From positions 1 through 64,000 of the forward strand of contig JAUSJA010000033.1 of the NCBI GenBank assembly GCA_030647905.1: DNA of 64,000 bases. Direction: 5' to 3'. How positions within the stretch are numbered: the stretch's first letter is position 1; the number at the start of each line of letters is the position of its first letter. This DNA comes from Gemmatimonadaceae bacterium (GTDB lineage Bacteria > Gemmatimonadota > Gemmatimonadetes > Gemmatimonadales > Gemmatimonadaceae). A program made the position numbers and the translations under genes. Positions 39,949-63,432 of this stretch are shown here, piece by piece. The notes below the pieces were generated by a model. That model worked only from the letters and a program-made list of their open reading frames with translations. It was not told the DNA's origin and searched no databases.

Positions 39949-39972
39949 CAGGACGTGATGGCCCACTCCGCC

Positions 39973-41654: not shown

Positions 41655-41679
41655 TTCGAGTTTTCCCTAATATACAACC

Positions 41680-42612: not shown

Positions 42613-42627
42613 CCTCGTGCAGGAGCG

Positions 42628-42834: not shown

Positions 42835-42874
42835 CGTCTTGCCCCCCCCTTGAATTCGTGTCGTCGAGCTCCGT

Positions 42875-43448: not shown

Positions 43449-43476
43449 ACGGGCCGCCGCAATTGCGACGGCCCGT
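43449..43476 (-). terminator. Strong stem-loop after the pntB remnant
   Basis: An 8-bp stem acgggccg / cggcccgt encloses a further self-complementary cgcaattgcg. On the minus strand it follows the pntB stop by about 40 bases and is followed by a short T-rich stretch. It looks like the original transhydrogenase terminator, retained after the gene was lost. Confidence 0.6.
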
Positions 43477-43513
43477 GGAACGCGTGGCGACAGTGCGTCG
43501 AGCTACTCTCGCA

Positions 43514-43681
43514 CTACTCCACGGTGCGCACCTCGTTGATGAGGGCCGTCAGCGACTTCTTTGCATCGCCGAACAGCATCGAGTTCTTGCGGTCGTAGAA
43601 CAGCTCGTTGTCGATGCCGGCGAAGCCCGGATTCATCGACCGCTTCATTGGGTTGGCCCGGTCCATGTCCAGCAGCGACGG
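43514..43681 (-). pseudogene. pntB: pntB remnant (NAD(P) transhydrogenase beta, C-terminal end)
   Basis: About 55 codons on the minus strand ending at a TAG (43514-43516). They read LLDMDRANPMKRSMNPGFAG, then IDNELFYDRKNSMLFGDAKK and the last residues. This is the conserved C-terminal NADP-binding end of PntB (K-R-S-M-x-x-G-[FY]-A-G-[IV]-x-N-x-L-F and M-L-F-G-D-A-K). The other roughly 400 residues are missing; the sequence to the right is the upstream region of the second NhaD-type gene. The break at about 43682 is therefore a rearrangement point. Confidence 0.8.
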
Positions 43682-43689
43682 CTACGACC

Positions 43690-43804
43690 TGTCCCCAATA
43701 TGTTAACCCGCGCATATTTCGCGAGCCGCGCCTGACATGGCGGGTTCCCACACAATCAACCCCGCGCTGCGCAGCATCTGGCATGGGCAACAGACAAGAA
43801 ATTC
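43690..43804. repeat. Duplicated upstream region of the NhaD-type genes
   Basis: Aligns with about 38510-38616 in front of copy 1: both contain a cgcgcatatt/cgtgcatatt start, a cgccgcgcctg-like block and the shared cagcatctggc(g/a)tgggcaa segment just before the start codon. This shows that the duplication covered the promoter as well as the gene. Confidence 0.6.
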
Positions 43805-47854: not shown

Positions 47855-49122
47855 GTTGCGTCGTTGGCATCGACCTCGGCTCGACCACCACGAAAGCGGT
47901 CATCCTCGACGAGAACCGCGAGGTGCTCGGGCGCGGTATCACGAACTCCCGCTCCAATTACGACCTCGCCGCGGCGGTCGCGAAGACCGAGGCGTTCATC
48001 AACGCGCGGTTCGGACTCATCGAGCAGCAACTCCAGGCGACCAAGACTGTGGCGATGGTGAGCCGCCTGCGCCGCGCCTTCGTGATGGAGCAGATACTCC
48101 AGCAGTTGCGGCGGCTCGAGCAGCTGATGCTCGAAGAGAGCGAACGATCGGCGCCGGAACAGCTCAAGCCGGCGTTCAGGACGAGCATCGAGGAGATCTG
48201 CAAGCAGATCACGCTGGAAGAAGAGCAACGGTTCAAACAACCGCCGATGCTGCGCTCGGATTTCTTTCGCGATGCGGCGGGTTCGGCCTTCATGCGCATC
48301 GCCGAGCAAATCGCCGACCCGGCCGGTGTGAGCTTCGACCGCCTGGTGGGCGTGTACGACAAGTGCATCCTTCGGGTGGAGAACGAGCCACTCGACCTCG
48401 ACTTCCGCGATCACATCGGCGACGCGTTGCGGCGCGTGGGCGACCCCCCCGGCCTCGCCGACGCGATCGAGTACGCGGTTGCGAAAGACCTGGCGCCCTC
48501 GTACACGGTGGGAACGGGGTACGGCCGGGCGCGCCTTCCCTTCCCCAAGGAGCAGATCCGCTCCGAGATCCTGTGTCACGGGCTCGGCGCACACGCGATG
48601 TTCCCGGGCACGCGCACGGTACTCGACATCGGCGGGCAGGACACGAAGGCGATTCAGGTGGATCCGCAAGGCATCGTCACGAACTTCCAGATGAATGACC
48701 GGTGCGCGGCGGGTTGCGGGCGCTACCTCGGTTACATCGCCGACGAGATGAACCTCGGACTCCACGAGCTGGGACCCCTGGCCGAGCAATCGAAGCGGTG
48801 CGTGAAGATCAACTCCACGTGCACCGTGTTCGCCGGCGCGGAACTGCGCGAGCGTCTCGGACTCGGCGAGAAGCGCGAAGACATTCTCGCGGGATTGCAC
48901 CGGGCGATCGTGATTCGCGCGATGAGCCTGCTCGCGCGCTCCGGGGGTGTATCGGATGAGTTCACATTCACGGGGGGCGTGGCGAAGAATTCCGCCGCCG
49001 TGCATGCCATTCGTGACCTCGTCGGAGAGAACTACGGTGAGCGTACGCTCAATATCTCCCCGGACAGCATCTTCACGGGCGCCCTTGGCGCGGCGCTCTT
49101 CGCCAGCCGGATAGCCGCATGA
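47851..49122 (+). CDS. bcrA: Benzoyl-CoA reductase ATPase subunit A (BcrA/BadF)
   Basis: 423-aa ATPase of the BadF/BadG/BcrA/HgdC (ASKHA) family. Phosphate-1 motif [12 protein letters not shown] (6-17), phosphate-2 [10 protein letters not shown] (259-268), cluster cysteines C285 in [20 protein letters not shown] and C324 in STCTVFAG, and adenosine motif TFTGGVAKN. The long insertion between the two halves (about 90-230) and the CAAGCGRYL motif are specific to BcrA rather than to the shorter HgdC type. It hydrolyses ATP to lower the potential of electrons delivered to BcrBC. GTG start at 47851, within the bcrB stop. Confidence 0.93.
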
Positions 49123-50009
49123 CACATGTCAGCGCGGGAATAGATGTTGGCAGCGGCGCCGTAAAAGTGGCCGTGATGCGAACGGACGGCGACAAGGAAG
49201 AGACGGTCATCGCGAAAGAGTCGGCGCGAATCCGGCGCCGCGAAGTCGCCAAGGTCGTGGACGAAGTGTTCGAGGCCGCGGTGTCAGCGGCGGACGTGGA
49301 CGATATCCACTACATCGCCACGACCGGCGAGGGGGCGGAGTTCCCGTTCGCGACGGGGCACTTCTACGGCATGACGACGCACGCGCGAGGCGCGCTGTAT
49401 CTCGATCCGCGCGCGAGGGCAGTGCTCGATGTCGGCGCGCTGCACACACGTGCCGTCGCGATGGACGCGCGCGGGCGCGTGTTGGACTACAAGATGACAA
49501 GCCAGTGCGCGTCGGGCTCCGGGCAGTTCCTCGAGAACATCGCCCGCTATCTCGGCGTCTCGCACGACGAGATCGGCGCGCTTTCGATGGAGGCGAAGAA
49601 GCCGGAGAAGGTGAGCTCGATCTGCGCGGTGCTCGCGGAGACCGATGTCATCAACATGGTGTCGCGGGGAATCACGACACAGGACATCCTGCGCGGCGTA
49701 CACGAGAGCATGGCTGACCGCTTCGTGCGTCTCCTTCGATCGCTCCAGTTCGACGGCCCCGCGTTCGTGAGCGGAGGACTCGCGTCGGACGTCGGATTGC
49801 TCAGTGCGTTGCGCGACGGTCTCGCCAGGAAGGCAGGTGCGGCCACCGTTCCGTTCGACGTAGTGACGCACGCGGACGCCATTTTCGCCGGTGCGATCGG
49901 CGCTGCGCTGTGCGGGGGATTCCGGTACCGGAAGTTGGGCCAGGGGGGCGTCGCGTGGGCCGCCGCGCAGAGCATGGCCTCGGCCAGCTCGGGCACGGGG
50001 ATCGGATGA
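49119..50009 (+). CDS. bcrD: Benzoyl-CoA reductase ATPase subunit D (BcrD/BadG)
   Basis: 296-aa second ATPase subunit. Phosphate-1 motif [13 protein letters not shown]; the phosphate-2 region reads [10 protein letters not shown] (104-113), the form typical of BcrD in place of DIGGQD; cluster cysteines C130 ([13 protein letters not shown]) and C169 ([11 protein letters not shown]). BcrA and BcrD hold one [4Fe-4S] cluster between them. The ATG overlaps the bcrA stop (ATGA), and its own stop overlaps the next gene. Completes a class I, ATP-dependent benzoyl-CoA reductase; no ferredoxin gene is adjacent, unlike in Thauera. Confidence 0.92.
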
Positions 50010-50884
50010 CAATCGCGGCGATCGCCTATCACCGGCCGGCCAGCCTGGCGGAGGCGTGCGCGCTCGGCCAGCATTATGGGAGCGACGCGGCGTATCTGGC
50101 CGGGGGGACAGAGTTGATCCCCGACTATCAGCGCGAGCGGGAGACGGCGCGACATCTGATCGCGCTCGACAGCATTCGCGAACTGCGGGGGATCTCAGAG
50201 GAGGCCGGGCTGCTGAGAATCGGCGCGCTCACGACCATCGCCGAGATCGCCGCATCGCCGCTCGTGCGCGCGCGGCTCCCGGCGCTCGCTGACGCCGCGC
50301 GCGCGATCGGCAGCCCGCAGATCCGGAGCATGGCGACGATCGGCGGGAATTTCTGCCGCGCTGTGCCGTGTGCCGACACCCCACCCGCCGCCATCGCGTG
50401 TGCAGCTCGCGTGCGGCTCGTTGGCGTGCTGGGGGCCCGCGAGCTCGACGCCGAGGACTTCTTCACTGGCGTGCGGAAAACCGCGCTCGACCCGGGAGAT
50501 GTGCTGGTCGAGATCGTAGTGCCCGCGCAGCCCCACCACTCGGGCGCGAGCTACCAACGCTTCGCCCGGCGGCGTGGCCCTGCGCTCGCGGTCGCGGCGG
50601 TGGCGGCGCGGGTGACGCTCGAGAATGGGAAAATCACGGGCGCGCGCATCGCACTCGGTGCCGTGGCGCCGACCCCGATCATCGCAGCGCGAGCGGCCGC
50701 GCTGCTCGAAGGGGAGCCGCCATCCGACGCGCTCTTCGAGCGGGCGGCTGCGCTGTGCGCGCAGGACGCTCTGCCGATCAGCGACGTGCGCGGGTCGGCC
50801 GACTACCGGACGGAACTCGTCGGCGTACTTGCCCGGCGGGCGCTTCACGAAGCCGTGGCACGCGCGGCAGGTTGGGCCCAATGA
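50006..50884 (+). CDS. Molybdenum hydroxylase FAD-binding subunit
   Basis: 292-aa FAD subunit of the xanthine dehydrogenase/CO dehydrogenase family: YLAGGTELIPDYQ (pyrophosphate loop, 31-43), IGSPQIRSMATIGGNFCRA, and DTPPAAIACAARV. Context suggests a hydroxybenzoyl-CoA reductase (HcrB). But the extra [4Fe-4S] insertion, a roughly 40-residue block with four cysteines that is diagnostic of HcrB, is absent after the GGNFCRA segment. It may therefore be a hydroxylase for another ring, or a cluster-less reductase variant. ATGA overlaps join it to bcrD and to the next subunit. Confidence 0.85.
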   Translation: MTIAAIAYHRPASLAEACALGQHYGSDAAYLAGGTELIPDYQRERETARHLIALDSIRELRGISEEAGLLRIGALTTIAEIAASPLVRARLPALADAARAIGSPQIRSMATIGGNFCRAVPCADTPPAAIACAARVRLVGVLGARELDAEDFFTGVRKTALDPGDVLVEIVVPAQPHHSGASYQRFARRRGPALAVAAVAARVTLENGKITGARIALGAVAPTPIIAARAAALLEGEPPSDALFERAAALCAQDALPISDVRGSADYRTELVGVLARRALHEAVARAAGWAQ

Positions 50885-53715
50885 GCGGCGAGCTCATGAT
50901 CCGCCTGAATGTGAACGGCGAAGACCGCACGCTTGCCGTTCGGCCGAATGCGACGCTGCTCTCGGTGCTGCGGGACGACCTCGATCTCACGGGCGCAAAG
51001 CGGGGATGCGGCACGGGGGACTGCGGCGCGTGCACCGTGCAGGTAGAGGGCGAACCAATGGCGTCGTGCCTGCTGCTCGCCGTGGCCGCGAACGAAAAGC
51101 GCATTACCACGGTCGAGGGACTCGCCCGCGACGGTGATCTGCACCCACTGCAGAAATCGTTCGTCAAGCATGGCGCGCTCCAGTGCGGCTACTGCACGAG
51201 TGGCGCGCTGATGTCGGCCAAAGCGCTCGTTGACCGGGATCCCGATCCATCACGCGAAGACATCAAGACATCGCTCAGCGGGAATCTCTGCCGGTGCGGT
51301 GCGTACGGTCGGATGGTCAGCGCGGTTGAAGGGTGGAAGGAATATGATGGCGTGGCGCTCGACGCACGGCCGCACGCGCACGGCGAACGCGACCAGCAGC
51401 GGGACCACGCCGTGGTCGGCCACGGCGTCACGCGGTACGACGGGCCCGACAAGGTGACGGGCCGCGCGAAGTACACCGCTGACCTGCGGTTTCCCGGCAT
51501 GCTTCACGGAAAGCTGCTTGGGAGTCCCATCGCGCACGGGCGCATCACGCGGCTCGACGTTTCCAAAGCCCGCGCGTTGCCGGGTGTCGTTGATGTGCTC
51601 ACCGCCGCCGATGTACCGGATGGGTGGTACGGCGTCAGTCCCGCACGCGAGGACGAGCAGATTCTGGCCAGGGATCGCGTCCGCTACGTCGGCGACGAGA
51701 TCGCCGCGGTCGCCGCGGTGGACGAGGAGACCGCTGAGCACGCCATCAAACTCATCGAAGTGGAGTTCGAGGAACTTCCGGCGGTGTTCGATCCGCAGGC
51801 GGCGATGGCGCCGGGCGCACCGGTGATTCATCCCGAGAAGCCGCGCTATGCCGGCAACATCAACACGCGCGTGGACTGGGACTTCGGCGACGTGGAGAAG
51901 GGGTTCGCCGAAGCGGACCACGTGCGCGAGCAACGGTTCGTCGGCAACCGCACCTACCAGGCGCCGATGGAGCCGCACGCGGCGCTCGCGCGCTGGGAGC
52001 ACCACGCCGGCCGGCTCACGATCTGGTCGTCCACGCAAACACCGCACTACGTCCATCGTTCGCTGTCGCGGATGCTCGGCATCCCGATGGGGAACATTCG
52101 CGTGATCCGGCCGCCGGTAGGCGGCGGCTTCGGAGCCAAGGCCGAGGCGACGCCACTCGACTTCTGCTCCGCGATTTTCGCGAAGCGGACCGGCCGGCCG
52201 GTGATGATGGAGTACTCGCGCGAGGAGATGTTCAGGCACTTCCGCGGGCGCCACAAGCAGTACATCGACCTGAAGATCGGCGTGAAGCGCGACGGCACGA
52301 TCACCGCCGTGGAGCAGCGCGTCGTGCTCGACGGCGGCGCATACACGTCGTACGGCGTGATCACGGCGTACTACGCGGGCTCGATGCTGCCCACGCTCTA
52401 CAAGATGCCGAACTACCGCTACCGCGGCACACGCGTCTATACGAACCTGCCCGCATCGGGGGCGTTCCGTGGCCACGGCGTGCCGCAGCCGCGGTTCGCG
52501 TTCGAGTCGCTGCTCGACATGATCGCGGAAGACATCGGGCTCGATCCAATCGAGATTCGGCTCAGGAACGCGATGACGCCGAACACGCGCACGTGCAACG
52601 CGCTCGACATTACGTCGTGTGAGTTCACGGCAACGCTTCAGCGCGCGCGCGACACGTCAAAGTGGATCGAGAAGAAGGGCAAGCTGCCGCGCGGCAGGGG
52701 AATCGGGGTCGGATGCGGTGGGTTCGTTTCCGGCGCCGGGTATCCGATCTATCGGTCCGATTTTCCGCATTCGAACGCCGTCATCCGCGTGCACGAGGAC
52801 GGCACCGGCGTGTCGCTGCACATCGCCGCCGCGGAGATCGGCCAGGGATCCGACACCGTGCTCGTGCAGATGGCGGCGGAAGAGCTGGGGGTGCCTTACG
52901 AATGGGTATGGCTCGCGGATTGCGACACGACGACGAGTCCGCTGGATCTCGGCTCGTACTCGAGTCGGGTCACACTGATGGCCGGCCACGCGGTTCAGCG
53001 CGCGGCAGCGAAAGTGCGCGCGCAGCTGCTCGCGGTCGCTGCCACAGAGTTGTCGCGCGACGTCGCGTCGCTCGTCGCGAGGGGGGGCCGGATCTTCGCG
53101 AACAATGATCCCGCTATGGCAATGGACTGGGCCGTGGCTGCACGGCTCGCGTTCTCAGCGCAAGGCCCGGTCGTCGGGACGGGATCGTACCAACCGCCGA
53201 AGAATCTTGGCGGCGACTTCAAAGGAGGCGCCGTTGGCACATCGCCGGCGTACAGTTTCTCGACCGTGGTCGCAGAGGTCACGGTGGACCTGGAGACCGG
53301 TCAGGTCTCGGTGGATCGGGTGACGGACTTCAGCGACGCGGGCACGGTGATCAATCCGATCACGTTCCACGGCCAGGTGGAAGGTTCGATCGTGATGGGG
53401 CTCGGCGAAACGCTGCTCGAGGACACACTTTTCGACGCGAAGGGACGTGCCATGAATCCAAACCTGCACGATTACCTGATCCCGACGATGCTCGAAATTC
53501 CAGAGATTCACACGGCAGCGGTCGAAAGCTTCGAACCCAACGGTCCGTTCGGCGCGAAGGAAGTCGGGGAGGGATCCCTGCTCCCGGTGCTCGGCGCGAT
53601 CGCCAACGCGATCTACGATGCGTGCGGCGTCCGCGTCACCGAGTTGCCCATCACGCCCGAAAAGATCCTGCGCGGCCTGGCGAAACACGCCCCGGTCAAT
53701 GGAGTCCCCGCATGA
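50881..53715 (+). CDS. Fused [2Fe-2S] and molybdenum-binding hydroxylase subunit
   Basis: 944-aa fusion of the small iron-sulfur and large Mo subunits. Residues 1-160: plant-type [2Fe-2S] cluster C43, C48, C51, C63 (GCGTGDCGACTV) and a second cluster C102, C105, C137, C139 (QCGYCTSGALM, GNLCRCGAYG). Residues about 180-940: Mo-cofactor domain with PPVGGGFGAKAEATPLDF, AAAEIGQGSDTVLVQ and the C-terminal GPFGAKEVGEGSLLPV containing the active-site Glu. HcrA-like features are the last motif and VTELPITPEKIL. The fusion of small and large subunits is itself unusual for hydroxybenzoyl-CoA reductases, which keep them separate. Likely dehydroxylates or hydroxylates the aromatic acyl-CoA before or instead of ring reduction. 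Confidence 0.87.
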   Translation: MSGELMIRLNVNGEDRTLAVRPNATLLSVLRDDLDLTGAKRGCGTGDCGACTVQVEGEPMASCLLLAVAANEKRITTVEGLARDGDLHPLQKSFVKHGALQCGYCTSGALMSAKALVDRDPDPSREDIKTSLSGNLCRCGAYGRMVSAVEGWKEYDGVALDARPHAHGERDQQRDHAVVGHGVTRYDGPDKVTGRAKYTADLRFPGMLHGKLLGSPIAHGRITRLDVSKARALPGVVDVLTAADVPDGWYGVSPAREDEQILARDRVRYVGDEIAAVAAVDEETAEHAIKLIEVEFEELPAVFDPQAAMAPGAPVIHPEKPRYAGNINTRVDWDFGDVEKGFAEADHVREQRFVGNRTYQAPMEPHAALARWEHHAGRLTIWSSTQTPHYVHRSLSRMLGIPMGNIRVIRPPVGGGFGAKAEATPLDFCSAIFAKRTGRPVMMEYSREEMFRHFRGRHKQYIDLKIGVKRDGTITAVEQRVVLDGGAYTSYGVITAYYAGSMLPTLYKMPNYRYRGTRVYTNLPASGAFRGHGVPQPRFAFESLLDMIAEDIGLDPIEIRLRNAMTPNTRTCNALDITSCEFTATLQRARDTSKWIEKKGKLPRGRGIGVGCGGFVSGAGYPIYRSDFPHSNAVIRVHEDGTGVSLHIAAAEIGQGSDTVLVQMAAEELGVPYEWVWLADCDTTTSPLDLGSYSSRVTLMAGHAVQRAAAKVRAQLLAVAATELSRDVASLVARGGRIFANNDPAMAMDWAVAARLAFSAQGPVVGTGSYQPPKNLGGDFKGGAVGTSPAYSFSTVVAEVTVDLETGQVSVDRVTDFSDAGTVINPITFHGQVEGSIVMGLGETLLEDTLFDAKGRAMNPNLHDYLIPTMLEIPEIHTAAVESFEPNGPFGAKEVGEGSLLPVLGAIANAIYDACGVRVTELPITPEKILRGLAKHAPVNGVPA

Positions 53716-54365
53716 CCGCCCGGCCCATCGCGCACATCGACGCAGTACGTCCATCGCGGCTGGTTCGCGCGTCGTCGCAGAAAAAACTCGACCGGCTGCT
53801 GAAGAAGACGGCCGCGCTCATCGCGAAAAACGGGTTCAACGCGATGACAATGCGCGACCTGAGCACGGCGCTCGGCACGAGTCTGGCGGGGCTGTACCAC
53901 TATTTCGCGAGCAAGGAAGATCTGCTCTTTCAGCTGCAATACCGCACTTTCGCGTCGCTGCTCGAGCAGCAGGAGAAGATCGCTGAGCAGCCGGGCACGC
54001 CGGAGGAGCAGCTCGCGCGATTGCTCACCGGCCACCTGCAGTTCTACTCGCGGCACACGAACGAGCTCAAGGCATGCACGTTCGAGATGGAGTCGCTTGG
54101 CCCCAAGCCCTACAAGATCGTCGAGGAGATTCGACGCCGTTACTACAGGCTGATGGCCTCGGCGGTCGCGCAGGTCACTGACGGGCCGGCGGCCGGCACG
54201 AGGGAAACCAGGCAGAGCCGGCACACGGCGCTGTTCATCTTCGGGATGCTGAACTGGATTTTCATGTGGTACGAGCCGTCGCGGCACGGGACGGTCGAGC
54301 AGATCGGACAGGAAATGCGCGACTTGCTGTTGAACGGCCTTCGGCGCACAAAACGAAGCAGTTGA
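53712..54365 (+). CDS. TetR-family transcriptional regulator
   Basis: 217-aa regulator. The N-terminal helix-turn-helix (about 28-75) reads LLKKTAALIAKNGFNAMTMR followed by DLSTALGTSLAGLYHYFASKEDLLF, the standard TetR layout; the helical C-terminal domain binds a ligand and mediates dimerisation. It sits inside the operon it probably controls (its ATG overlaps the hydroxylase stop), giving autoregulation. The palindromes at 33370 and 45363 are the natural candidate sites; an aromatic or alicyclic acyl-CoA is the likely inducer by analogy with other TetR regulators of acyl-CoA pathways. Confidence 0.88.
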   Translation: MTARPIAHIDAVRPSRLVRASSQKKLDRLLKKTAALIAKNGFNAMTMRDLSTALGTSLAGLYHYFASKEDLLFQLQYRTFASLLEQQEKIAEQPGTPEEQLARLLTGHLQFYSRHTNELKACTFEMESLGPKPYKIVEEIRRRYYRLMASAVAQVTDGPAAGTRETRQSRHTALFIFGMLNWIFMWYEPSRHGTVEQIGQEMRDLLLNGLRRTKRSS

Positions 54366-54417: not shown

Positions 54418-55629
54418 GTGCAGTTCAACGATGTCTGGATTCCCTACGGTGGGTACTGGTCCACGCCGTTCACCCCGTGGCAGGGGGCGTTCGCGACGCT
54501 GGCGCCGATTCCGTTCGCCGCCGAAATGGCGGCACGCGCCTTGTCGGATCGCGGCGTCGCCGCAACCGACATCGACGGTCTCTGCCTCGGCACGACCGTC
54601 GCGAGCAAGCATTCCTTCTACGGTGCTCCGTGGTTCGCCGGGCTGGCGGGCCTCGGCCACGTGGGTGGACCGACGATCAACCAGGCGTGCGCGACGTCGG
54701 TGCGCTGCCTGGTGCAGGCCGCACAGGAGCTCGAATCGAAGAGCGCACACACCTACCTGGCCGCCACCGCCGACCGCACCAGCAACGGTCCGCATGTGTT
54801 CTACCCGAATCCCGCTGGTCCAGGCGGCACGGGCGACTCAGAGAACCTCGTGCTCGACAGTTTCGGGCACGACCCGTACGCCAGGAATTCGATGCTGCAG
54901 ACCGCGGAGAATGTGGCACGCGAGGCCGGAATCACACGCGAAGCGCAGGAAGAGGTCACCCTTCTGCGCTACAAGCAATACGAGCGCGCGCTCGCCGACG
55001 ACAGCGCGTTTCTCAGGCGCTACATGTTGTGGCCGGTGGAGATCAAGGACGCGCGAGGCAAGAAGGTGCTCGCGACGGTGACTGGGGACCAGGGTGTCTT
55101 TCCGACCACGGCGGACGGACTCGCCGGACTCCGGCCCGTGATGGAGGGGGGCACGGTCACATTTGGCACGCAGACACACCCCGCCGATGGCAACGCGGCC
55201 ATGTTGCTCACGTCGGGCCGCGACCGCGCCCGCTCTCTCGCGCGGAATGGCACAGTGGACGTGCAACTGCTCTCGTACGGACAGGCGCGCGTCAAGAAGG
55301 GCTTCATGCCGATGGCGGTGCTTCCCGCCGCGAAGCTCGCGCTCGAACGCGCGGGAATCCAGCCGAACGCGCTGGCCAGCGTCACGACGCACAACCCGTT
55401 CGCCGTAAATGACGTGTACCTCATGCGGGAGTTGAAGCTCGACGCCGAGCGGATGAACCGCTACGGATGTTCGCTCGTGTGGGGCCACCCACAGGGACCG
55501 ACAGGGCTCCGGTCGATCATCGAACTGATCGAGGACCTGACGATCCTGGGCGGCGGATATGGACTGTTCACCGGCTGTGCCGCAGGCGACAGCGCCGCCG
55601 CGGTCGTGCTGAAAGTCAGCGTGCGCTGA
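54418..55629 (+). CDS. Thiolase family acyl-CoA acetyltransferase
   Basis: 403-aa thiolase-superfamily protein. The N-terminal nucleophile is in TINQACATSVRCLVQA (Cys near 88). C-terminal motifs are THNPFAVNDVYL (His), YGCSLVWGHPQGPTG (His) and LFTGCAAGDSAAAVVLKV, where Cys takes the place of the usual C-x-G-G-G-x-G cysteine. It is divergent from housekeeping thiolases but keeps the expected catalytic residues. Best guess is cleavage of 3-oxopimeloyl-CoA to glutaryl-CoA and acetyl-CoA, given the neighbours. GTG start at 54418 behind a strong gaggaggg ribosome site. Confidence 0.8.
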   Translation: MQFNDVWIPYGGYWSTPFTPWQGAFATLAPIPFAAEMAARALSDRGVAATDIDGLCLGTTVASKHSFYGAPWFAGLAGLGHVGGPTINQACATSVRCLVQAAQELESKSAHTYLAATADRTSNGPHVFYPNPAGPGGTGDSENLVLDSFGHDPYARNSMLQTAENVAREAGITREAQEEVTLLRYKQYERALADDSAFLRRYMLWPVEIKDARGKKVLATVTGDQGVFPTTADGLAGLRPVMEGGTVTFGTQTHPADGNAAMLLTSGRDRARSLARNGTVDVQLLSYGQARVKKGFMPMAVLPAAKLALERAGIQPNALASVTTHNPFAVNDVYLMRELKLDAERMNRYGCSLVWGHPQGPTGLRSIIELIEDLTILGGGYGLFTGCAAGDSAAAVVLKVSVR

Positions 55630-55659
55630 ACCATACGAATGGCCGAGAGGACCTTTACG

Positions 55660-56616
55660 ATGAACTATTTCGCCCCGAAAGAGGCTGCCGGATTCGGATT
55701 CAAGGACATCCTGTACGAGAAGAAAGACTGGGTAGGACGCATCACGATCAACCGGCCCGAGTCGTTCAATTGTTACACGACTGCCACGCTGCAGGAGCTG
55801 ATCACCGCGATCGACGACGCCTCGACCGACGACAACGTCGGCGTGATCGTGCTGACGGGCGCCGGCGACAAGGCGTTCTGCACGGGCGGCGATGTGAAGG
55901 AATACGCGAACACCTACACCAGGAGCCCGCACGACTACTTCAAGTACATGGGGCTCTTCGCCAAGTACATCGAGAGCATTCTGCGCAGCGGCAAGGTGAC
56001 GATCGCGCGTATCAACGGGATCGCGGTCGGCGGCGGCAACGAGACCCAGCTGGCGTGCGATCTCGCGGTCATGGCTGACGACACCTATCTCGGCCAGGTT
56101 GGAACGAGTGTGGGGAGCGTTGCCTGTGGCGGCGCGACCCAATGGCTGTCGATCCACGTGGGGGACCGCCGCGCACGCGAAATGCTGTTTCTCAATCCGC
56201 GCATCCCCGCGGCAAAGGCGCTCGAATGGGGACTCGTGAACCGTGTTGTTCCGCGTGCCCAACTCGACGAAGAAGTGGCGACGCTCGTCAAGCAGTTGCT
56301 CGAGAAGTTCCCCGAATGCACGCGTTACACCAAGCAGCAGGTGAACTACTGGAAGGAAGTGTCGTGGCACGCCACCGTCGGGCATGCGCGCGACTGGCTC
56401 TCGACACACTTCACCACGCTCGAGCCCTACGAGGGGATGCAGGCGTTCGTGGAGAAGCGGAAAGTGGACTTCATGGGACTGCGGCGCAAAGCCGCCGGAG
56501 CGGGAAGCAGCGAATTCCTCTGGGGCCCATACAGCAAGGCGTGCACCAAGTGCGGCGCGAAGGGTATTCCGGAGCAGTTCACTTACTGCGGCGGTTGCGG
56601 CGCCGCGCTCACATAG
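55660..56616 (+). CDS. Oah/BamA-like ring hydrolase (crotonase) with C-terminal zinc ribbon
   Basis: 318-aa crotonase-fold protein. Landmarks shared with 6-oxocyclohex-1-ene-1-carbonyl-CoA hydrolase are NRPESFNCYTT, LTGAGDKAFCTGGDVKEYA, YFKYMGLF, RINGIAVGGGNETQLACDLAV, YLGQVGTSVGSVACGGATQW and WGLVNRVVP. The roughly 45-residue block that follows VVP in Oah (normally about 375 aa) is missing. Instead the last 25 residues form a CxxC-x11-CxxC zinc ribbon (C295, C298, C310, C313) that Oah does not have. It probably hydrates and opens the alicyclic ring to give 3-hydroxypimeloyl-CoA. Start at 55660 has a gagagg site; an in-frame ATG lies at 55639. Confidence 0.72.
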   Translation: MNYFAPKEAAGFGFKDILYEKKDWVGRITINRPESFNCYTTATLQELITAIDDASTDDNVGVIVLTGAGDKAFCTGGDVKEYANTYTRSPHDYFKYMGLFAKYIESILRSGKVTIARINGIAVGGGNETQLACDLAVMADDTYLGQVGTSVGSVACGGATQWLSIHVGDRRAREMLFLNPRIPAAKALEWGLVNRVVPRAQLDEEVATLVKQLLEKFPECTRYTKQQVNYWKEVSWHATVGHARDWLSTHFTTLEPYEGMQAFVEKRKVDFMGLRRKAAGAGSSEFLWGPYSKACTKCGAKGIPEQFTYCGGCGAALT

Positions 56617-56629
56617 CACTGCGAATGTC

Positions 56630-57379
56630 ATGAGTCTCGAACTCGCTGGTCAGGCGGCGCTGGTCACTGGCGCTGGACGCGGCATCGGCGCGGCGATCGC
56701 GCGCGAGTTCGCGCGCGCTGGTTGCGACGTGGCGCTCGTGGAGTTCGGGGCGTTCAATGAAGCGCAAAGCCTGGCCGATGAGCTGCGCCGGTCAGGGAGG
56801 CGCGCGGTCGCGATCCGCGCCGACGTCTCGGATGTCGGCGCGGCTGAGCGGGCGGTCGCGGCCACGGTTGAGGCGTTCGGCCGGCTCGATCATCTCGTGT
56901 GCAACGCGGGCATCACGCGCGATGCGATGATCTGGAAGATGACGGAAGAAGCCTGGGACCAGGTGATCGACGTCAATCTCAAAGGCTGTTTTGCGTACTG
57001 CCGCGCGGTGGCGGGCTTGTTTCGCACTCAGCAGCACGGGCGCATCGTGAACATCGCGTCGATCAACGGGCTGCGCGGAAGGGCCGGGCAGGCGAATTAC
57101 GCGGCATCGAAGGCGGGGATCATCGCGCTCACGCGTACGCTCGCGCGCGAGCTAGGGCCGAAGGGAGTGAACGTGAATTGTGTCGCCCCCGGCATGGTGC
57201 GAACCGAAATGGCGGCGAAACTCCCGCCGACCGTCCTCGAGAAAGCCATCGCCGAAACGGCCCTCGGCCGGATCGCCGAGCCGGAGGACGTGGCGCGCGT
57301 CGTCGTCTTTTTGTGCAGTGAAGCCGCACGCCACATCACGGGAGAAGTCATCAGAGTGGATGGGGGCCAGTTGGCATGA
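56630..57379 (+). CDS. SDR-family dehydrogenase (hydroxyacyl-CoA, BadH/Had role)
   Basis: 249-aa classical short-chain dehydrogenase/reductase: cofactor site TGAGRGIGAAIA (13-24), NAG in LVCNAGITRD, and catalytic Ser-Tyr-Lys in IASINGLRGRAGQANYAASKAG, with the C-terminal ITGEVIRVDGGQ. In Thauera the 6-hydroxycyclohexene-carbonyl-CoA dehydrogenase (Had) is a zinc MDR enzyme, while in Rhodopseudomonas BadH is an SDR. An SDR sits here between the ring hydrolase and the dienoyl-CoA hydratase, so it most likely oxidises the cyclic hydroxyacyl-CoA to the ketone that the hydrolase opens. Thirteen bases after the ring-hydrolase stop. Confidence 0.82.
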   Translation: MSLELAGQAALVTGAGRGIGAAIAREFARAGCDVALVEFGAFNEAQSLADELRRSGRRAVAIRADVSDVGAAERAVAATVEAFGRLDHLVCNAGITRDAMIWKMTEEAWDQVIDVNLKGCFAYCRAVAGLFRTQQHGRIVNIASINGLRGRAGQANYAASKAGIIALTRTLARELGPKGVNVNCVAPGMVRTEMAAKLPPTVLEKAIAETALGRIAEPEDVARVVVFLCSEAARHITGEVIRVDGGQLA

Positions 57380-57415
57380 CACGTGAGAGATATGCATGAA
57401 CGGAGCGCGGACGCG

Positions 57416-58189
57416 ATGACCGGGAACGCAAGCCTCGTGAGGTATGAGGTGCGCGATGGCATCGCGCACGTGACGCTCGACGCACCGCCGCTCAACATCC
57501 TGAGCGCGGCGATGATGCTGCAACTCACCGACGCACTGGAACGCGCGCAAGCGGATCGCTCACTCACTGCGGTTGCGGTTGGCTCGAATGGTCGTGCGTT
57601 CTCCGCCGGCGCGGACATCGGCGAGCACCGTCCCGAGCAGGCTCCCGGGATGATCGCCGCCTTCAGCCGTCTGTTCCGCGTGCTGGGGGCGAGCGAGTTG
57701 CCCCTTGTCATGGCTGTAGACGGGGCGGCGCTTGGGGCGGGATTCGAGCTGGCGATGATGGCCGACGTGCTCCTCGCGAGCGATCGCGCGACGTTCGGTC
57801 AACCGGAAATCCGGCTTGGCTTCTTCGCGCCGGTTGGCGTCACCGCGTTGCCGGCGCGTATCGGACTCGCGCGTGCGCTTGAAATCACATGCACGGGACG
57901 CACGTACACGGCGGCGGAGATGCTCGCGATGGGCCTTGTGTCGCGCGTCATCGCGTTTGCCGAGCTGCCGGCGGCGATAGACGGTGTGCTCGCGGACCTG
58001 CGGCGCTCGAGCCCGCTCGTGATGCGGATGAACGTGCGGTTGACGCGAACGCTCTTCGGCCAGCCATTCGAGGATGCGCGCTGTGCGGCGGAACGTGTGT
58101 TCCTTGGCGAACTCATGGCGACGGAAGACGTCCGCGAAGGACTCGCGTCCTTCTTCGAGAAGCGCCGGCCGGCGTGGAAAAACCGATGA
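57416..58189 (+). CDS. Cyclohexa-1,5-diene-1-carbonyl-CoA hydratase-like (Dch)
   Basis: 257-aa crotonase, the size of Dch. Distinguishing features are LDAPPLNILSAAMMLQL at the N-terminus, FSAGADIGEHRPEQAPGMIA with the His-Arg-Pro turn characteristic of this subgroup, VDGAALGAGFELAMMADVLL, and FGQPEIRLGFFAPVGVTALP. It should add water to the conjugated diene made by benzoyl-CoA reductase. GTG at 57383 and ATG at 57392 are alternative starts; the ATG at 57416 is preferred because it begins the conserved N-terminus and follows a ggag site. Completes the early pathway: reductase, hydratase, dehydrogenase, hydrolase. Confidence 0.82.
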   Translation: MTGNASLVRYEVRDGIAHVTLDAPPLNILSAAMMLQLTDALERAQADRSLTAVAVGSNGRAFSAGADIGEHRPEQAPGMIAAFSRLFRVLGASELPLVMAVDGAALGAGFELAMMADVLLASDRATFGQPEIRLGFFAPVGVTALPARIGLARALEITCTGRTYTAAEMLAMGLVSRVIAFAELPAAIDGVLADLRRSSPLVMRMNVRLTRTLFGQPFEDARCAAERVFLGELMATEDVREGLASFFEKRRPAWKNR

Positions 58190-58220: not shown

Positions 58221-60536
58221 ATGAGAATCCTGATCGTCGGTGCAGGCGCGCTGGGAGGGCTCGTGGGAGCATTCCTCACGCGTGCAGGAGAGGATGTGAC
58301 GCTCCTCGAGACGAATGTTGCCCGCGCACATCTGCTCAACACGGACGGACTGCACATCGTGCAAACAGGACGCGATGAATCCATCACCGTTCCTCTGCGC
58401 GTCGTGACGTCGGCGGAAGGGCTCGAGCCGTTCGATCTCGTGTTCATCGCGGTCAAGACGTATCAGACCGAGGACGCCGTGAAGGCAGCGTTGCCGGCCG
58501 CGCATGCGGGCACGCGATTCCTGTCGATGCAGAACGGCATCGGCAATACGGAGGTCGTGGCAGGCCTTGTCGGTCCCGATCGCGTGCTGTGCGGCATCAC
58601 GTACCACAGCGTGCAGCACGTCGGCCCGGGGCGGCTGCAGTTCCGCGCCGGGATCAAACCGATCCAGATCGCACCATTCGACGGGGTCGTGACCCCCGCG
58701 ATCGACGCGATCGGCGAGACGTTTCGCCGCGCGGGGCTCGATACGACGGTCGTCGCGAACATCGACCACGCTGTGTGGCACAAGTTGCTGCACAACGCGG
58801 CAATCAATCCCGTCTCCGCCATCACCGGCCTCACCTGCCGCGAGATCCTCGGAGACGAAGACCTGCTGGCGTTCATACGCGACTTGTGCGCGGAAATTGT
58901 CGCCGTGATGCGCGCGCGCGGCGTTCCCATCGTCGATGAGGAAGATCCGTTCCGTCCGCTGCTCGGATCACTTAACGCGCTCGGAAACAATCGGCCGACG
59001 ATGTGGCAGGATCTCGCGCGGGGCGTGCGGACGGAAGTGGACGCACTCAACGGAGCGGTCGTGGCGGAGGCGAAACGACTCGGGTTGCTCGCGCCGCACA
59101 ATGCGGCGCTCGTGCGGTTCGTGCATTCACGCGAGCGGCAACGGTTTCTCAACCGGCAGCACATCACGCGCTCGCTGGGACTCGACAGCACGTCCCGAAC
59201 GAACCGGATGAGTTCCGCTGCCGGTGGCACCTTTGCGGCTGCGCGGCGGGCGGACCGCGGGAACCAGCCACAGGCACCGCCGCTCGAAAGCACGCGGCGG
59301 CTGAAGGAAATCGTGCAGGCGTACTACCGCGACCTTGGTGCCGCCTCCGATGATCCCAACCGGTTCGTCGCAGCGTGTTCAAGCCTCGCCCCCGTGGAGA
59401 TCGTTCGCGCGCTCGGAATCGCTCCCTACTCTCCGGAGAACCATGCGGTGCTCATCAGCGCGCGTCATGAAGCGGCGCGCTATCTGGCGCGCGCGTCCAC
59501 GGAAGGGTTCTCCGAGTTCTCCAGCTCAGCGATGCGCGCGGACATCGGTGCACTTCTGGCGCAAAGCAGCCCGCTCATCGCGGCTCATGGGATCAAAGGT
59601 CCGCCGCGCCCCGATGTCGTCGTCTACTCGACCAACACGGGGCAGGAACTGCTGCGCTGGTTCGAGTTCTATGGCGCCCACTTCGGCGTGCCCGTTGTGG
59701 GCCTCCATCCGTCGTCGGCGCTGCACGAGATGGACAGCACCGAATTGTACGGCGCGGTCGAGCAGTTGTTGCGTCTGGTCGAGCAAGTCGAACGCGCCAC
59801 CGGTCTTACGCTCTCCATGGACCGGCTTGGCGAAACGGTGGCGTACACGGCGCAGGCGGCGAAACTGTGGGGCGACATTCTCGATCTCGCGCGCGCGGCG
59901 CCGGCTCCGCTGACGTTTTTTGACATGCTGACCCACATGACACCGATGGTTGTGCTCCGCGGCACGCCAGAGGCGGTCGCATACTACCAACTATTGAAGA
60001 GCGAAGTCGAAAACCGTATTGCGAACGGCACCGCGGCGGTGCCCGGCGAGCGGCAGCGCTTCTACTGGGACGGTCCGCCAATCTGGAGTGCGCTGCGGCC
60101 GCTCGCGCAGATCTTCGCCGACCGGGGGGTCGCGATCGTGGCGTCGACGTTCTGCGCGACGTTCACGCTCACGGGGCTCGACCCGCGCGACCCGGTCGAG
60201 AGCATCGCGCGGACCTACGCCTCCGTGTTCAGCAATCGCTCGGAGCGATATCAGCGCGACTACCTCGCCGACAAGTTCGCGCGGTTCGGCGTCGACGCGG
60301 CGGTCTTTCACGATTCCCGCACGACACCCGAAGCGAGTCACGTGCGCTACGGGCTCGCGGTTCGGGCCGAGCGGCAGACGGGCGTGCCGGCGTTCGTGAT
60401 CGAGGCCGATTCGCACGACGAGAGACTGTTTTCGGCCGATCGACTGCAACAGCGGCTCGGGGAATTCCTGGAACAGCATGAACCGCAGACAGCGGGCGTC
60501 GGCGGGCGCCAGCGAATGGACACGAGGAGGAGGTAG
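58221..60536 (+). CDS. Ketopantoate-reductase-like domain fused to a cysteine-less HgdB/BcrB-type subunit
   Basis: 771-aa fusion. Residues 1-325 are a complete ApbA/PanE-type reductase: NAD(P) site GAGALGG (7-13), with K188, N192, N196 and E272 of ketopantoate reductase conserved (VWHKLLHNAAINP, TEVDALNGAV). A linker (about 326-355) leads to an HgdB/BcrB-type domain (356-755) that is collinear with the protein at 61376 (LTFFDMLTHMTPMVVLRG, FYWDGPPIW, VAIVASTFC). The three cluster-ligating cysteines of that family are replaced: S435, G474 and S699. The second half is therefore a cluster-less partner subunit, and the first half offers a nicotinamide site. I know of no described protein with this architecture. 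Start at ATG 58221, 31 bases after the Dch-like gene. Confidence 0.85.
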   Translation: MRILIVGAGALGGLVGAFLTRAGEDVTLLETNVARAHLLNTDGLHIVQTGRDESITVPLRVVTSAEGLEPFDLVFIAVKTYQTEDAVKAALPAAHAGTRFLSMQNGIGNTEVVAGLVGPDRVLCGITYHSVQHVGPGRLQFRAGIKPIQIAPFDGVVTPAIDAIGETFRRAGLDTTVVANIDHAVWHKLLHNAAINPVSAITGLTCREILGDEDLLAFIRDLCAEIVAVMRARGVPIVDEEDPFRPLLGSLNALGNNRPTMWQDLARGVRTEVDALNGAVVAEAKRLGLLAPHNAALVRFVHSRERQRFLNRQHITRSLGLDSTSRTNRMSSAAGGTFAAARRADRGNQPQAPPLESTRRLKEIVQAYYRDLGAASDDPNRFVAACSSLAPVEIVRALGIAPYSPENHAVLISARHEAARYLARASTEGFSEFSSSAMRADIGALLAQSSPLIAAHGIKGPPRPDVVVYSTNTGQELLRWFEFYGAHFGVPVVGLHPSSALHEMDSTELYGAVEQLLRLVEQVERATGLTLSMDRLGETVAYTAQAAKLWGDILDLARAAPAPLTFFDMLTHMTPMVVLRGTPEAVAYYQLLKSEVENRIANGTAAVPGERQRFYWDGPPIWSALRPLAQIFADRGVAIVASTFCATFTLTGLDPRDPVESIARTYASVFSNRSERYQRDYLADKFARFGVDAAVFHDSRTTPEASHVRYGLAVRAERQTGVPAFVIEADSHDERLFSADRLQQRLGEFLEQHEPQTAGVGGRQRMDTRRR

Positions 60537-60539
60537 CCC

Positions 60540-61379
60540 ATGCCAGACAGCGCGAGCGGAATCGCGGCGGGAGTGGACGTCGGAACGGAGTGCGTGAAGG
60601 CCGTCGTGATAACGGATGCCGGTCGCACGCTCGGTCGCTCGGTGATACCGACGCGCGGCTACTTCCAGGTCTGCGCATACGAAGCGCTGACCGCCGCTCT
60701 CGATGATGCGCACAGGCGGCTTGACGAGCTGACGGGGATCGGAGCGACTGGCTTCGCCATGACGTGCGTGCCGAACGCGACGGTCACGATAACGGAATCG
60801 GTGTCGCACGCGCGGGGCGCGTTTCATCACCGGCAACACGCCATGACGCTGGTGAACATCGGCGGCGGCGATCCGCACGTGATCATCGTTGACGCTGCGG
60901 GGCGCCGGGTCGGGGAGCGCGGCATGCGGCGCTGTGCGGTGGGGGTCGGGAGTTTTCTGATGTTTTCGGCGCGCCACCTCGACGTGAACGCGACCCAACT
61001 CGACGAGCTCGCCGCTGCGGCCGGCAACGATGCGGCAGCGGTGAGCAGCTATTGCTCGGTGTTCTCCGCATCAGAAGTGCTTGAACGGCTGCGTGAGGGC
61101 GCCACGCGCGAGCAGGTGGCGCTGGGCTGCATACGGTCCATCGCGCAGCGCGTGCTGGAACTCGGTGGCTTCGAAGATCCCGTCGTGATATCGGGGGGCG
61201 TTGCCGAGTATTTCCCAGGCGTGCTGCGTGCGCTGGAATCGCTCTCGGGATTGCAGCTGACCACGCTGCCGGAGCCGATCTTCACTGGCGCATTCGGCGC
61301 GGCACTCGCAGCGTTCAGTGACCAGTGGGAAGATCCAGCGCGCCGCGGCGTCGACCAGGCAGAAGGAGCGCTGAAATGA
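60540..61379 (+). CDS. Divergent BadF/BcrD-type ATPase subunit
   Basis: 279-aa ASKHA ATPase of the BcrA/BcrD/HgdC family. The fold is clear: phosphate-1 GVDVGTECVKAVV (11-23), cluster cysteines C132 (MRRCAVGVGSFLMFS) and C172 (SSYCSVFSASEVL), and late VVISGGVAEYFPGVL. The phosphate-2 motif is altered to NIGGGDPHVI (106-115), with Asn for the first Asp and no Gln-Asp pair, and the GSTTTK loop is GTECVK. It probably plays the BcrD role, holding the shared cluster with limited or no ATP hydrolysis, beside the canonical ATPase at 62620. Strong ribosome site gaggaggagg just before the ATG. Confidence 0.85.
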   Translation: MPDSASGIAAGVDVGTECVKAVVITDAGRTLGRSVIPTRGYFQVCAYEALTAALDDAHRRLDELTGIGATGFAMTCVPNATVTITESVSHARGAFHHRQHAMTLVNIGGGDPHVIIVDAAGRRVGERGMRRCAVGVGSFLMFSARHLDVNATQLDELAAAAGNDAAAVSSYCSVFSASEVLERLREGATREQVALGCIRSIAQRVLELGGFEDPVVISGGVAEYFPGVLRALESLSGLQLTTLPEPIFTGAFGAALAAFSDQWEDPARRGVDQAEGALK

Positions 61380-62620
61380 CCGAACTGGCCAGCACCAACG
61401 CGCTACGCGCCACCATGGACGCGTATTACCGTTCGTTGGCTGATGCCGCCCTCCGCAAGACCGCACCGGTAGCCTGGTGCACGAGTGCGGGGCCGGTGGA
61501 ATTGCTGCGCGCGCTGGGCTTTGCCGTGCATTTTCCCGAAAACCACGCGGCGATGATGGGAGCCGCGCGCACGGCGAGCCGTTACCTGCCGCTGGCGCAC
61601 GCGCAGGGATACTCGCAGGACATCTGCTCGTACCTGACGAGCGACATCGGCGCGTACCTCGCGGGCGAGTCGCCGCTCAAAGCTTACGGATTGGAGCGCG
61701 CGCCAGCGCCTGACGTCCTCGTGTTCAACACCAACCAGTGCCGGGATGTCCGTGACTGGTTCGAGTGGTACGGACGCGAGCTACACGTTCCCGTGGTTGG
61801 CGTGCACTCTCCGCGCTCGATCGACGACGTCACCGAAAGTGACATCGATTCGGTGACCAGGCAGCTCGAGTCGCTGGTGGCTCCACTCGAGCAGGTGGCC
61901 GGCACGCGGCTCGACGACGCGCGGCTGATGGCCGCCATGCGCGCGTCGAGGGACGCCGCGCGACTATGGGGGACATGTCTCGGGACAGCGTCGGCCCGCC
62001 CGGCGCCGTTGACCTTCTTCGACGGCTCCATCCACATGGGGCCGGCCGTGGTGCTTCGTGGAAGCGACGACGCTCCGGCGTACTACCGGACGCTGCTCGC
62101 AGAACTCGAGCAGCGGGTCGAAAACCGTGTCGCCGCCGTGCCGGGCGAGACACTGCGCCTGTATTGGGACGGCATGCCGGTCTGGGGACGGTTGCGGGCG
62201 CTATCGACGATGTTCGCTGAGTTCCATACCGCGGTCGTGGCTTCGACCTACTGCAACAGCTGGGCATTTGCGGACCTCGACCCCGCTGAGCCGTGGCGGT
62301 CCGTCGCCCGTGCCTCGCTCGAACTGTTCATCGCGCGCTCCGAAGCACCGAAGGAGCGGTACATCGCCCGCATGGTGAAATTCTACGACGTCGATGGCGT
62401 GATTTTCCACGACTGCCGCACGTGCCCAAACAATTCGAACACGCGCTACGGCATGCCGGGACGTATCACCGAACGCCTTGGGATCCCGACACTGGTGCTC
62501 GACGGGGACGTCAACGATCTGCGGTGTTTCTCCGACGAGCAGGCGCGCACGAATATCGAGGGATTCGTCGAACAACTGACCGATGCGCGCGGGGCGACGT
62601 CAGCGAGGGGATCGCGCTGA
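61376..62620 (+). CDS. HgdB/BcrB-type active-site subunit of a second reductase/dehydratase
   Basis: 414-aa protein of the 2-hydroxyacyl-CoA dehydratase/benzoyl-CoA reductase family. All three cluster cysteines are present: C84 (SQDICSYLTSD), C122 (NTNQCRDVRDWFE) and C347 (IFHDCRTCPNNS, with C350 nearby). Other landmarks are WCTSAGPVELLRALG, YWDGMPVWGRL and VVASTYCNSWAF. It is collinear with, and clearly a paralogue of, the C-terminal half of the fusion protein at 58221, so the two probably form a heterodimer with a single cluster. ATGA overlap with the upstream ATPase and TGATG overlap with the downstream one. Confidence 0.87.
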   Translation: MTELASTNALRATMDAYYRSLADAALRKTAPVAWCTSAGPVELLRALGFAVHFPENHAAMMGAARTASRYLPLAHAQGYSQDICSYLTSDIGAYLAGESPLKAYGLERAPAPDVLVFNTNQCRDVRDWFEWYGRELHVPVVGVHSPRSIDDVTESDIDSVTRQLESLVAPLEQVAGTRLDDARLMAAMRASRDAARLWGTCLGTASARPAPLTFFDGSIHMGPAVVLRGSDDAPAYYRTLLAELEQRVENRVAAVPGETLRLYWDGMPVWGRLRALSTMFAEFHTAVVASTYCNSWAFADLDPAEPWRSVARASLELFIARSEAPKERYIARMVKFYDVDGVIFHDCRTCPNNSNTRYGMPGRITERLGIPTLVLDGDVNDLRCFSDEQARTNIEGFVEQLTDARGATSARGSR

Positions 62621-63432
62621 TGAAATTCTACGCCGGCGTCGACAGCGGATCCTGGACGACGAAGGCAGCCGTCATCGACGAAGAGGGCCACGTGCTCGGC
62701 ACCGCCGTTACGCGGTCCGGCGCCGACCTGGCCGCGGCGGCCGAACGCGCGTATGCGACGGCCCTGGCAAACAGCGGCCGTACGGGCGACGACATCGAGG
62801 CGGTATGGTCAACAGGTTTTGGCCGGAACACGATTCCATTCGCGGACGGATCGCGCACGGAACTCGACTGTCACGGGCGCGGCGTGGCCTATTACCTCAA
62901 GGGACCGCTCGTGGTGATCGACGTCGGCGGGCAGGACGCGAAGGTCATCCGTCTCGATGCCGCGGGGCATCGTCTGTCGCATCGCATGAACCGAAAATGC
63001 GCCGCCGGCACCGGGAGCTTCCTCGACGAAATCTCGCTGCGGCTTGGCATCGACATCGGCGAACTGAATGCGCTGGGTCGCGGCGCGACCGAGAGTCTGG
63101 AACTCTCGAGTTTCTGCACGGTGTTCGCCGGAACCGAGTTGCTCACGCTGATCCGCAGCGGCAAGCGACCCGCCGACCTGGCGATGGCTGCATACCGCTC
63201 GCTCGTCAAACGCATCGTCTCAATGGACGTACTTGAAGGTCGCATCGCTGCGACGGGCGGCGTCGTGGCCTACCATCCGATCGTTGTCGAGCTGATCGGC
63301 GCTGCATGTCGCGGCGAAGTGGTCGTGCCTCCCCACCCTCAGGAGATCGGCGCGTTTGGCGCGGCGCTCGCCGCATTGGCCGCGTGCGAGGAGCACGACA
63401 CGTCGGACACGGCGGAGTTGGTTCAACCATGA
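62620..63432 (+). CDS. BadF/BcrA-type ATPase subunit (canonical)
   Basis: 270-aa ASKHA ATPase with intact motifs: GVDSGSWTTKAAV (6-18), DVGGQDAKVI (101-110), C127 in NRKCAAGTGSFLDE, C166 in SSFCTVFAGTELL, and AATGGVVAYHP. It is the short HgdC-type form without the BcrA insertion. Paired with the divergent ATPase at 60540, it would provide ATP-driven electron injection into the HgdB-type heterodimer. TGATG coupling to the subunit at 61376 and ATGA to the synthetase downstream. Confidence 0.88.
   Translation: MKFYAGVDSGSWTTKAAVIDEEGHVLGTAVTRSGADLAAAAERAYATALANSGRTGDDIEAVWSTGFGRNTIPFADGSRTELDCHGRGVAYYLKGPLVVIDVGGQDAKVIRLDAAGHRLSHRMNRKCAAGTGSFLDEISLRLGIDIGELNALGRGATESLELSSFCTVFAGTELLTLIRSGKRPADLAMAAYRSLVKRIVSMDVLEGRIAATGGVVAYHPIVVELIGAACRGEVVVPPHPQEIGAFGAALAALAACEEHDTSDTAELVQP

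Follow-up and report, generated by a model that had tools for sequence, protein, structure and literature searches.

A conserved four-gene module linked to benzoyl-CoA reductase in Gemmatimonadota, tentatively read as a one-cluster 2-hydroxyacyl-CoA dehydratase with a tethered 2-oxoacid reductase domain

The 64,000 nt window analysed here (contig JAUSJA010000033.1, positions 1-64,000, forward strand; GCA_030647905.1, Gemmatimonadaceae bacterium) carries a four-gene module that is real, conserved and, as far as literature searches reach, undescribed. It encodes a ketopantoate reductase (KPR)-like domain fused to an HgdB-type domain without cluster ligands (FusH), a stand-alone HgdB-type subunit (HgdX) and two BadF-type ATPases (ActX and ActY). 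We tentatively read the module as an atypical member of the superfamily of 2-hydroxyacyl-CoA dehydratases (HADs) and class I benzoyl-CoA reductases (BCRs), namely a one-cluster HAD joined to a tethered NAD-type 2-oxoacid reductase, a reading to which, taken whole, we give somewhat less than an even chance. Of its parts, the HAD-like one-cluster enzyme and the tethered 2-oxoacid reductase are each moderately probable, and the aryl 2-hydroxyacyl-CoA pathway is the most speculative.

All four genes lie on the forward strand. The fusion gene (58221-60536) encodes 771 aa with the Pfam domains ApbA at residues 3-154, ApbA_C at 180-304 and HGD-D at 389-752. Its KPR domain, of the PanE/ApbA 2-oxoacid reductase-like type, spans residues 1-310 (58221-59150), and FusH, an HAD-alpha-like domain with the predicted fold of HadB, spans residues ~356-755 (59286-60485; PF06050 at 389-752). 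ActX (60540-61379; PF01869, and TIGR00241 above cut-off), HgdX (61376-62620; PF06050) and ActY (62620-63432; TIGR00241, 183 bits) follow. A 3-nt gap separates the fusion from ActX, while ActX and HgdX share a 4-nt ATGA overlap and HgdX and ActY a 1-nt TGATG overlap; the four genes are translationally coupled. A first-pass annotation of this DNA had described four coupled genes for two HgdB-type and two BadF-type proteins, which the open reading frames and their Pfam domains bear out. It had also set them directly after bcrCBAD, which is incorrect, as bcrD ends at 50009 and hcrB-like, hcrCA-like, tetR, thiolase, BadI/Oah-like, SDR and enoyl-CoA hydratase (ECH) genes intervene.

The whole fusion was present in six of the 99 relatives examined first, and a pattern search added further Gemmatimonadota, Krumholzibacteriota, Eisenbacteria, one Anaeromyxobacter metagenome-assembled genome (MAG) and unassigned bacteria, at 52-89% identity. 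When relatives were searched for KPR and HgdB in one protein and their neighbourhoods mapped, the fusion proved intact in the three named phyla and in the Anaeromyxobacter MAG. A frameshift or assembly error that had joined two genes, an explanation that the unfused KPR of Deltaproteobacteria might seem to favour, is thereby practically ruled out, the fusion being open and collinear in many independent assemblies from several phyla at this level of divergence.

The KPR domain scores 251 bits against TIGR00745 (cut-off 141), contains both PF02558 and PF08546, and keeps the catalytic residues K188, E272 and N105 in all ortholog rows covering these positions, as had been claimed; by these features it belongs to the ketopantoate reductase/2-oxoacid reductase family. 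Nearly all orthologs have an acidic residue (Glu, once Asp) following beta-2, which suggests the use of NAD(H), unlike E. coli PanE, which has an Arg at this position. The predicted model matches the folds of ketopantoate reductase and D-mandelate dehydrogenase, and D-mandelate dehydrogenases of this fold have been solved with NADH (3wfj, 5x20). Sites of the KPR type accommodate 2-oxo or 2-hydroxy acids in free form. Residues 301-351 (59121-59273), which may overlap the end of the KPR domain, have a pLDDT <50 and are predicted to form a disordered linker, so that KPR is probably a tethered, independent domain. One could instead suppose that KPR is a housekeeping ketopantoate reductase, serving CoA supply and fused by chance to part of an unrelated reductase or dehydratase made up of HgdX, FusH, ActX and ActY, given that TIGR00745 is exceeded and that a search of the window's genome found no KPR homolog besides the fusion. 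This is improbable in view of the linkage of KPR, fused and unfused, to ECH, Had and HgdX genes in several phyla, and of the acidic residue after beta-2.

HgdX is predicted from the alignment to be the sole carrier of an active-site cluster in the module. C84, C122 and C350 stand at the aligned cluster-ligand columns and are kept in 17 of 17 HgdX sequences; position 350 is Cys in HadB, BcrB, MbdO, HgdX and HgdX2 alike, and position 347 varies between C, A and S among HgdX orthologs. The ligand set C84, C122 and C347 given in the first-pass annotation thus stands in its first two members, the third being C350. FusH has S435, G474 and T702 at these columns, the last in place of the S699 named earlier, and no FusH ortholog that covers the sites retains any of these cysteines. 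FusH has also lost the Tyr two residues past the first ligand Cys (A437). HgdX shares W34, S37, E55 and V125 with HadB; the Bcr and Mbd subunits differ from both at 34, 37 and 125, and E55 is common to all. With its equivalents of S37 and E55, residues that have roles in HadB, its three-Cys site and its predicted fold, HgdX has the features of an HAD alpha subunit. In BzdO, Ser44 and Glu65 have been described (PMC11971306).

Both HgdX and FusH are HAD-alpha-like in predicted fold, with HadB first and the BCR alpha subunits MbdO and BzdO next: TMt to HadB is 0.84-0.85 for HgdX and 0.92-0.93 for FusH, against 0.73-0.77 and 0.80-0.83 to MbdO/BzdO, in models whose quality is moderate (pLDDT 75.6 and 77.0) given their shallow alignments (10 and 12 rows). 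Sequence comparison with the PDB likewise places HadB at the top for HgdX (164.8 bits; MbdO 95.6, BzdO 93.1). The NCBIfam equivalog cut-offs for BCR subunits are missed by HgdX (133/487 bits) and ActY (114/578); the cut-off of the double-cubane cluster protein model NF040772 is missed as well (47/350). HgdX and FusH form sister clades, together supported at 100/100 by IQ-TREE, as after one duplication. FastTree joins the pair with HAD alpha subunits at a support of 1.0, which IQ-TREE does not uphold, giving this grouping only 46/37 in a tree built without characterised FldB, LcdB or HgdA sequences. Domain and alignment analysis of the module genes found no BcrC/BzdN-type or other beta subunit and no relay cluster; where a class I BCR pairs its alpha subunit with a cluster-bearing BcrC/BzdN-type subunit, both parts here are of HadB/BcrB type. 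The nearest paralog of HgdX, HgdX2 (~40% identical; L111-L117), occurs with a cluster-bearing beta subunit in Deltaproteobacteria. The gene contexts of HgdX2 (M1 peptidase, kinase, Fic and other genes) gave no functional hint.

The two ATPases differ as well. ActY has the canonical DVGGQD motif and both cluster Cys. ActX keeps both cluster Cys in all orthologs and has the variant phosphate motif NIGGGDP in the window and its close kin. The NIGGGDP that was reported earlier in place of DIGGQD is real here, but most ActX orthologs have DIGGRDP and the D-to-N change is limited to some Gemmatimonadota. In having two BadF-type ATPases, both with two cluster Cys, the module shares a trait of class I BCRs; compared with the separate activators of HADs, which have DIGGQD and cluster Cys and are homodimeric in known systems, ActY is canonical and ActX a different second subunit. 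The BcrD of the window (49119-50009) has DVGALH in place of DIGGQD, so that the true BCR here also has an ATPase asymmetry.

The module is closely tied to BCR. Of 395 sampled Gemmatimonadota genomes, 16 carry HgdX along with FusH, and all of these have BCR. BCR-type genes were found in 42 genomes, 17 with BcrB over the curated cut-off and 25 with a more distant BcrB (206-226 bits), which groups with MbdO in the one case placed in the tree (L100); the module is present in 15 of the former, in one of the latter (G216) and in none of the 353 BCR-free genomes, a difference whose Fisher p of 1.3e-17 is an overstatement, because related genomes are not independent data points. G060 and G081 possess BCR, Oah and Had genes but no module, which is therefore not essential to the ring pathway.

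Three arrangements of the locus were recognized among carriers spanning at least four phyla. In Gemmatimonadota the order is bcrCBAD-hcrB-hcrCA-tetR-thiolase-BadI/Oah-like-SDR-ECH-KPR.FusH-ActX-HgdX-ActY-ligase-Had. Several other phyla have one unit of hcrB-hcrCA-tetR-SDR-thiolase-DUF35-ECH-KPR.FusH-ActX-Had and a second of HgdX-ActY-ADP-forming ligase-symporter. Three Deltaproteobacteria (L047-L049) have thiolase-SDR-thiolase-DUF35-ECH-KPR-Had, in which KPR stands alone (308-314 aa), with HgdX-ActY-ligases at a separate place and FusH and ActX absent. An acyl-CoA ligase comes after HgdX-ActY in nearly all mapped loci (exception L044), and genome G426 has HgdX-ActY-ACD-ACS-BclA. In the same genome a distant second KPR (27% identical; L118:4201-5226) is the neighbour of Had and Oah, a hint that KPR and this pathway recur together. 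Genomes G110 and G112 encode AFOR-type proteins (~647 aa) followed by BamBC-like 4Fe-4S proteins of putative class II identity; given these genes, we do not favour the idea that Deltaproteobacteria rely on HgdX-ActY as their only BCR.

In the enzyme that we propose, HgdX would hold the only active-site [4Fe-4S] cluster of an HgdX-FusH heterodimer, with FusH as a pseudo-alpha subunit in place of the usual beta subunit. ActX and ActY would jointly bind one bridging [4Fe-4S] cluster through two Cys each and would spend ATP to drive an electron directly to the cluster of HgdX; as FusH is cluster-less, the electron must take this direct path if the four proteins form one complex. Such a transfer would suit one-electron activation better than two-electron reduction, although it is not proof. 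For BzdNO it is proposed that two or more electrons accumulate on the [8Fe-9S] cluster of the second subunit, to serve the two-electron reduction of the ring (PMC11971306), whereas HADs formally need one recycled electron, yet keep a second cluster (PMC11971306, PMC11574389). By analogy, the gene set follows the logic of the Stickland reductive branch, which combines a 2-oxoacid reductase, CoA activation, an HAD and its activator (PMC11574389). The NAD(H)-dependent KPR would reduce a 2-oxo acid to the 2-hydroxy acid, the neighbouring acyl-CoA ligase would activate it, and HgdX would remove the 2-hydroxyl by ketyl-radical chemistry to leave a 2-enoyl-CoA. Since the module is so strictly linked to benzoyl-CoA genes, the most probable starting compound would be an aryl 2-oxo acid derived from Phe or Tyr, such as phenylpyruvate or 4-hydroxyphenylpyruvate. 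The compound dehydrated would then perhaps be of phenyllactyl type, and the resulting cinnamoyl- or coumaroyl-CoA would be shortened to (4-hydroxy)benzoyl-CoA.

Several points weigh against this proposal. We know of no precedent for an HAD with a cluster-less second subunit, and the beta subunit with a second cluster that HADs possess is absent; the heteromeric ATPase pair is BCR-like rather than HAD-like; HgdX reaches only 193 of the 750 bits of the NCBIfam HadB equivalog cut-off, although this is still the best curated family matched; and besides the low IQ-TREE support for the HAD grouping, the AU test does not reject a BCR grouping (p = 0.44). A benzoate-CoA ligase in the HgdX operon of G111, G421 and G426 is not predicted by a 2-hydroxy-acid role, and the genes adjoining the module include no aromatic aminotransferase. 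The ECH, SDR and thiolase would do just as well for cleaving the ring and degrading 3-hydroxypimelyl-CoA and hence give no independent support for side-chain beta-oxidation.

The ATPase pair, the AU test and the ligases beside HgdX would also suit a second ATP-dependent ring reductase, in which HgdX reduces another aryl-CoA (e.g. hydroxybenzoyl-CoA) or a ring intermediate and KPR moves hydride to or from the product, as would the overall four-part make-up, the confinement of the module to BCR genomes within Gemmatimonadota, and the position of KPR next to ECH and, in Deltaproteobacteria, Had. We nevertheless consider this unlikely, because the module lacks both a subunit of the BcrC/BzdN type and a relay cluster on which two electrons could be kept, because its alpha-type HgdB parts are nearest to HadB in sequence and fold, and because KPR-type sites bind a free carboxylate, which CoA-ester ring intermediates do not have; the 4-hydroxybenzoyl-CoA reductase-like enzyme is, moreover, equally common in BCR genomes without the module. 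The first-pass annotation had envisaged an ATP-dependent enzyme with one active-site cluster and an attached nicotinamide site that perhaps reduces a second intermediate or couples the reduction of the ring to hydride transfer: the asymmetric ATPases, the single predicted cluster, the tethered domain and the link to BCR genomes are upheld at the level of sequence, and the suggestion of a second BCR-type ring reductase is the part we do not favour.

The surrounding genes described next lie on the forward strand. The class I BCR genes bcrCBAD (45417-50009; NCBIfam cut-offs exceeded by BcrC, BcrB and BcrD and just missed by BcrA, at 576 against 578) are followed by a 4-hydroxybenzoyl-CoA reductase-like Mo enzyme with an FAD subunit and a fused gamma-alpha subunit (50009-53715; TIGR03194 948 bits, cut-off 995), a TetR-family regulator (53697-54365), a thiolase-like protein (54418-55629), a BadI/Oah-like ring hydrolase with a C-terminal zinc-ribbon-like Cys motif (55639-56616; TIGR03210 193 and TIGR03200 183 bits, both below cut-off), the SDR dehydrogenase (56624-57379), conserved in gene order, and ECH (57383-58189; TIGR03189 146 bits, below cut-off), which adjoins KPR on its upstream side in nearly all loci. 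On the other side, an AMP-forming acyl-CoA ligase (ACS, 632 aa) begins at 63429 and extends past the window to ~C33:65327. Had (TIGR03201 above cut-off) lies just downstream in the same contig and is present in 22 of the 23 module-family genomes, canonical Oah in 11. A canonical cyclohexadienoyl-CoA hydratase (Dch), above its cut-off, is found only in G108, which has no such operon ECH; in the other 22 the place of best candidate falls to the ECH of the operon (mostly 130-160 bits) or to a hit about as weak. The BadI/Oah-like hydrolase occupies the place of the missing canonical Oah in Gemmatimonadota.

The resemblance of these neighbours to badH (SDR), badK (ECH) and badI (the TIGR03210 match) raises the idea that cyclohexa-1,5-diene-carboxyl-CoA is what the module reduces, yielding the monoene at which the Rhodopseudomonas-type badHKI branch begins (PMC9795900). 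There is little to recommend it, as the Had and Oah counts show that the usual diene branch exists in module-family genomes. A replacement of Had by KPR is ruled out by their coexistence. Neither of two supposed proofs of the substrate holds its full weight: the thiolase and DUF35 pair, as a sign of aryl side-chain cleavage, is also found in the module-free G081 together with BCR, Oah and Had, and the link to the 4-hydroxybenzoyl-CoA reductase-like enzyme, as a sign of tyrosine, is weakened by its frequency in module-free BCR genomes. The FAD subunit of that enzyme scores 128/405 bits against TIGR03195, the 4-hydroxybenzoyl-CoA reductase beta model, and similarly low in L043 and L048, and perhaps is without the extra [4Fe-4S] domain. 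Beside the bcr cluster, the region 38452-45127 contains an nhaA-I riboswitch (43261-43319, reverse strand), an NhaA gene (39973-41433) and two NhaD-like antiporters.

Among known systems, HadBC with HadI, the (R)-2-hydroxyisocaproyl-CoA dehydratase of C. difficile (3o3m, 4eht), resembles the module in alpha-subunit fold, the three Cys ligands, S37/E55 and BadF-type activators and, by pathway analogy, in the adjacent 2-oxoacid reductase and CoA activation. The module differs in replacing the cluster-bearing beta subunit by a cluster-less alpha paralog fused to KPR, in its two different activator subunits and in having a ligase rather than a CoA transferase. Class I BCRs (BcrCBAD; BzdNOPQ, 8s02; MbdONPQ, 9gai) share with it two HgdB-type and two BadF-type proteins, one ATPase off the DIGGQD motif and the gene cluster, but the module has two alpha-type HgdB parts, no subunit with an [8Fe-9S] or other relay cluster, scores below the equivalog cut-offs and the KPR fusion. 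PanE/ApbA ketopantoate reductases and D-mandelate dehydrogenases (5hws, 3wfi, 5x20) have the same Rossmann and C-terminal domains and catalytic Lys/Glu/Asn, whereas here a disordered linker ties KPR to an HgdB domain and the acidic residue after beta-2 suggests NAD(H). The double-cubane cluster protein (6eno, 7yyl) shares the superfamily fold and a BadF-type reductase partner, but the match to its family model is weak and there is no sign of a double-cubane ligand set. The HAD and BCR members described in the cited literature have clusters in both catalytic subunits. No paper describing the KPR-HgdB combination or the module was found in the literature searched, and the study of bcr genes in Krumholzibacteriota (PMC10936416) gave no hit for HgdB, ketopantoate or BadF.

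The module may represent, though we advance this with reserve, a new class of ATP-driven radical acyl-CoA enzyme with one active-site cluster in an alpha/pseudo-alpha pair, no relay cluster and a tethered hydride-transfer domain, serving either a new route from aryl 2-oxo acids (Tyr/Phe) to benzoyl-CoA by radical dehydration or the reduction of a second aromatic ring intermediate. A widely conserved dimer with one cluster-less subunit and a nicotinamide-type domain would show how little ATP-driven radical chemistry needs, and the module would add an undescribed entry route or an unknown step to the anaerobic breakdown of aromatic compounds by Gemmatimonadota, Krumholzibacteriota, Eisenbacteria and Deltaproteobacteria.

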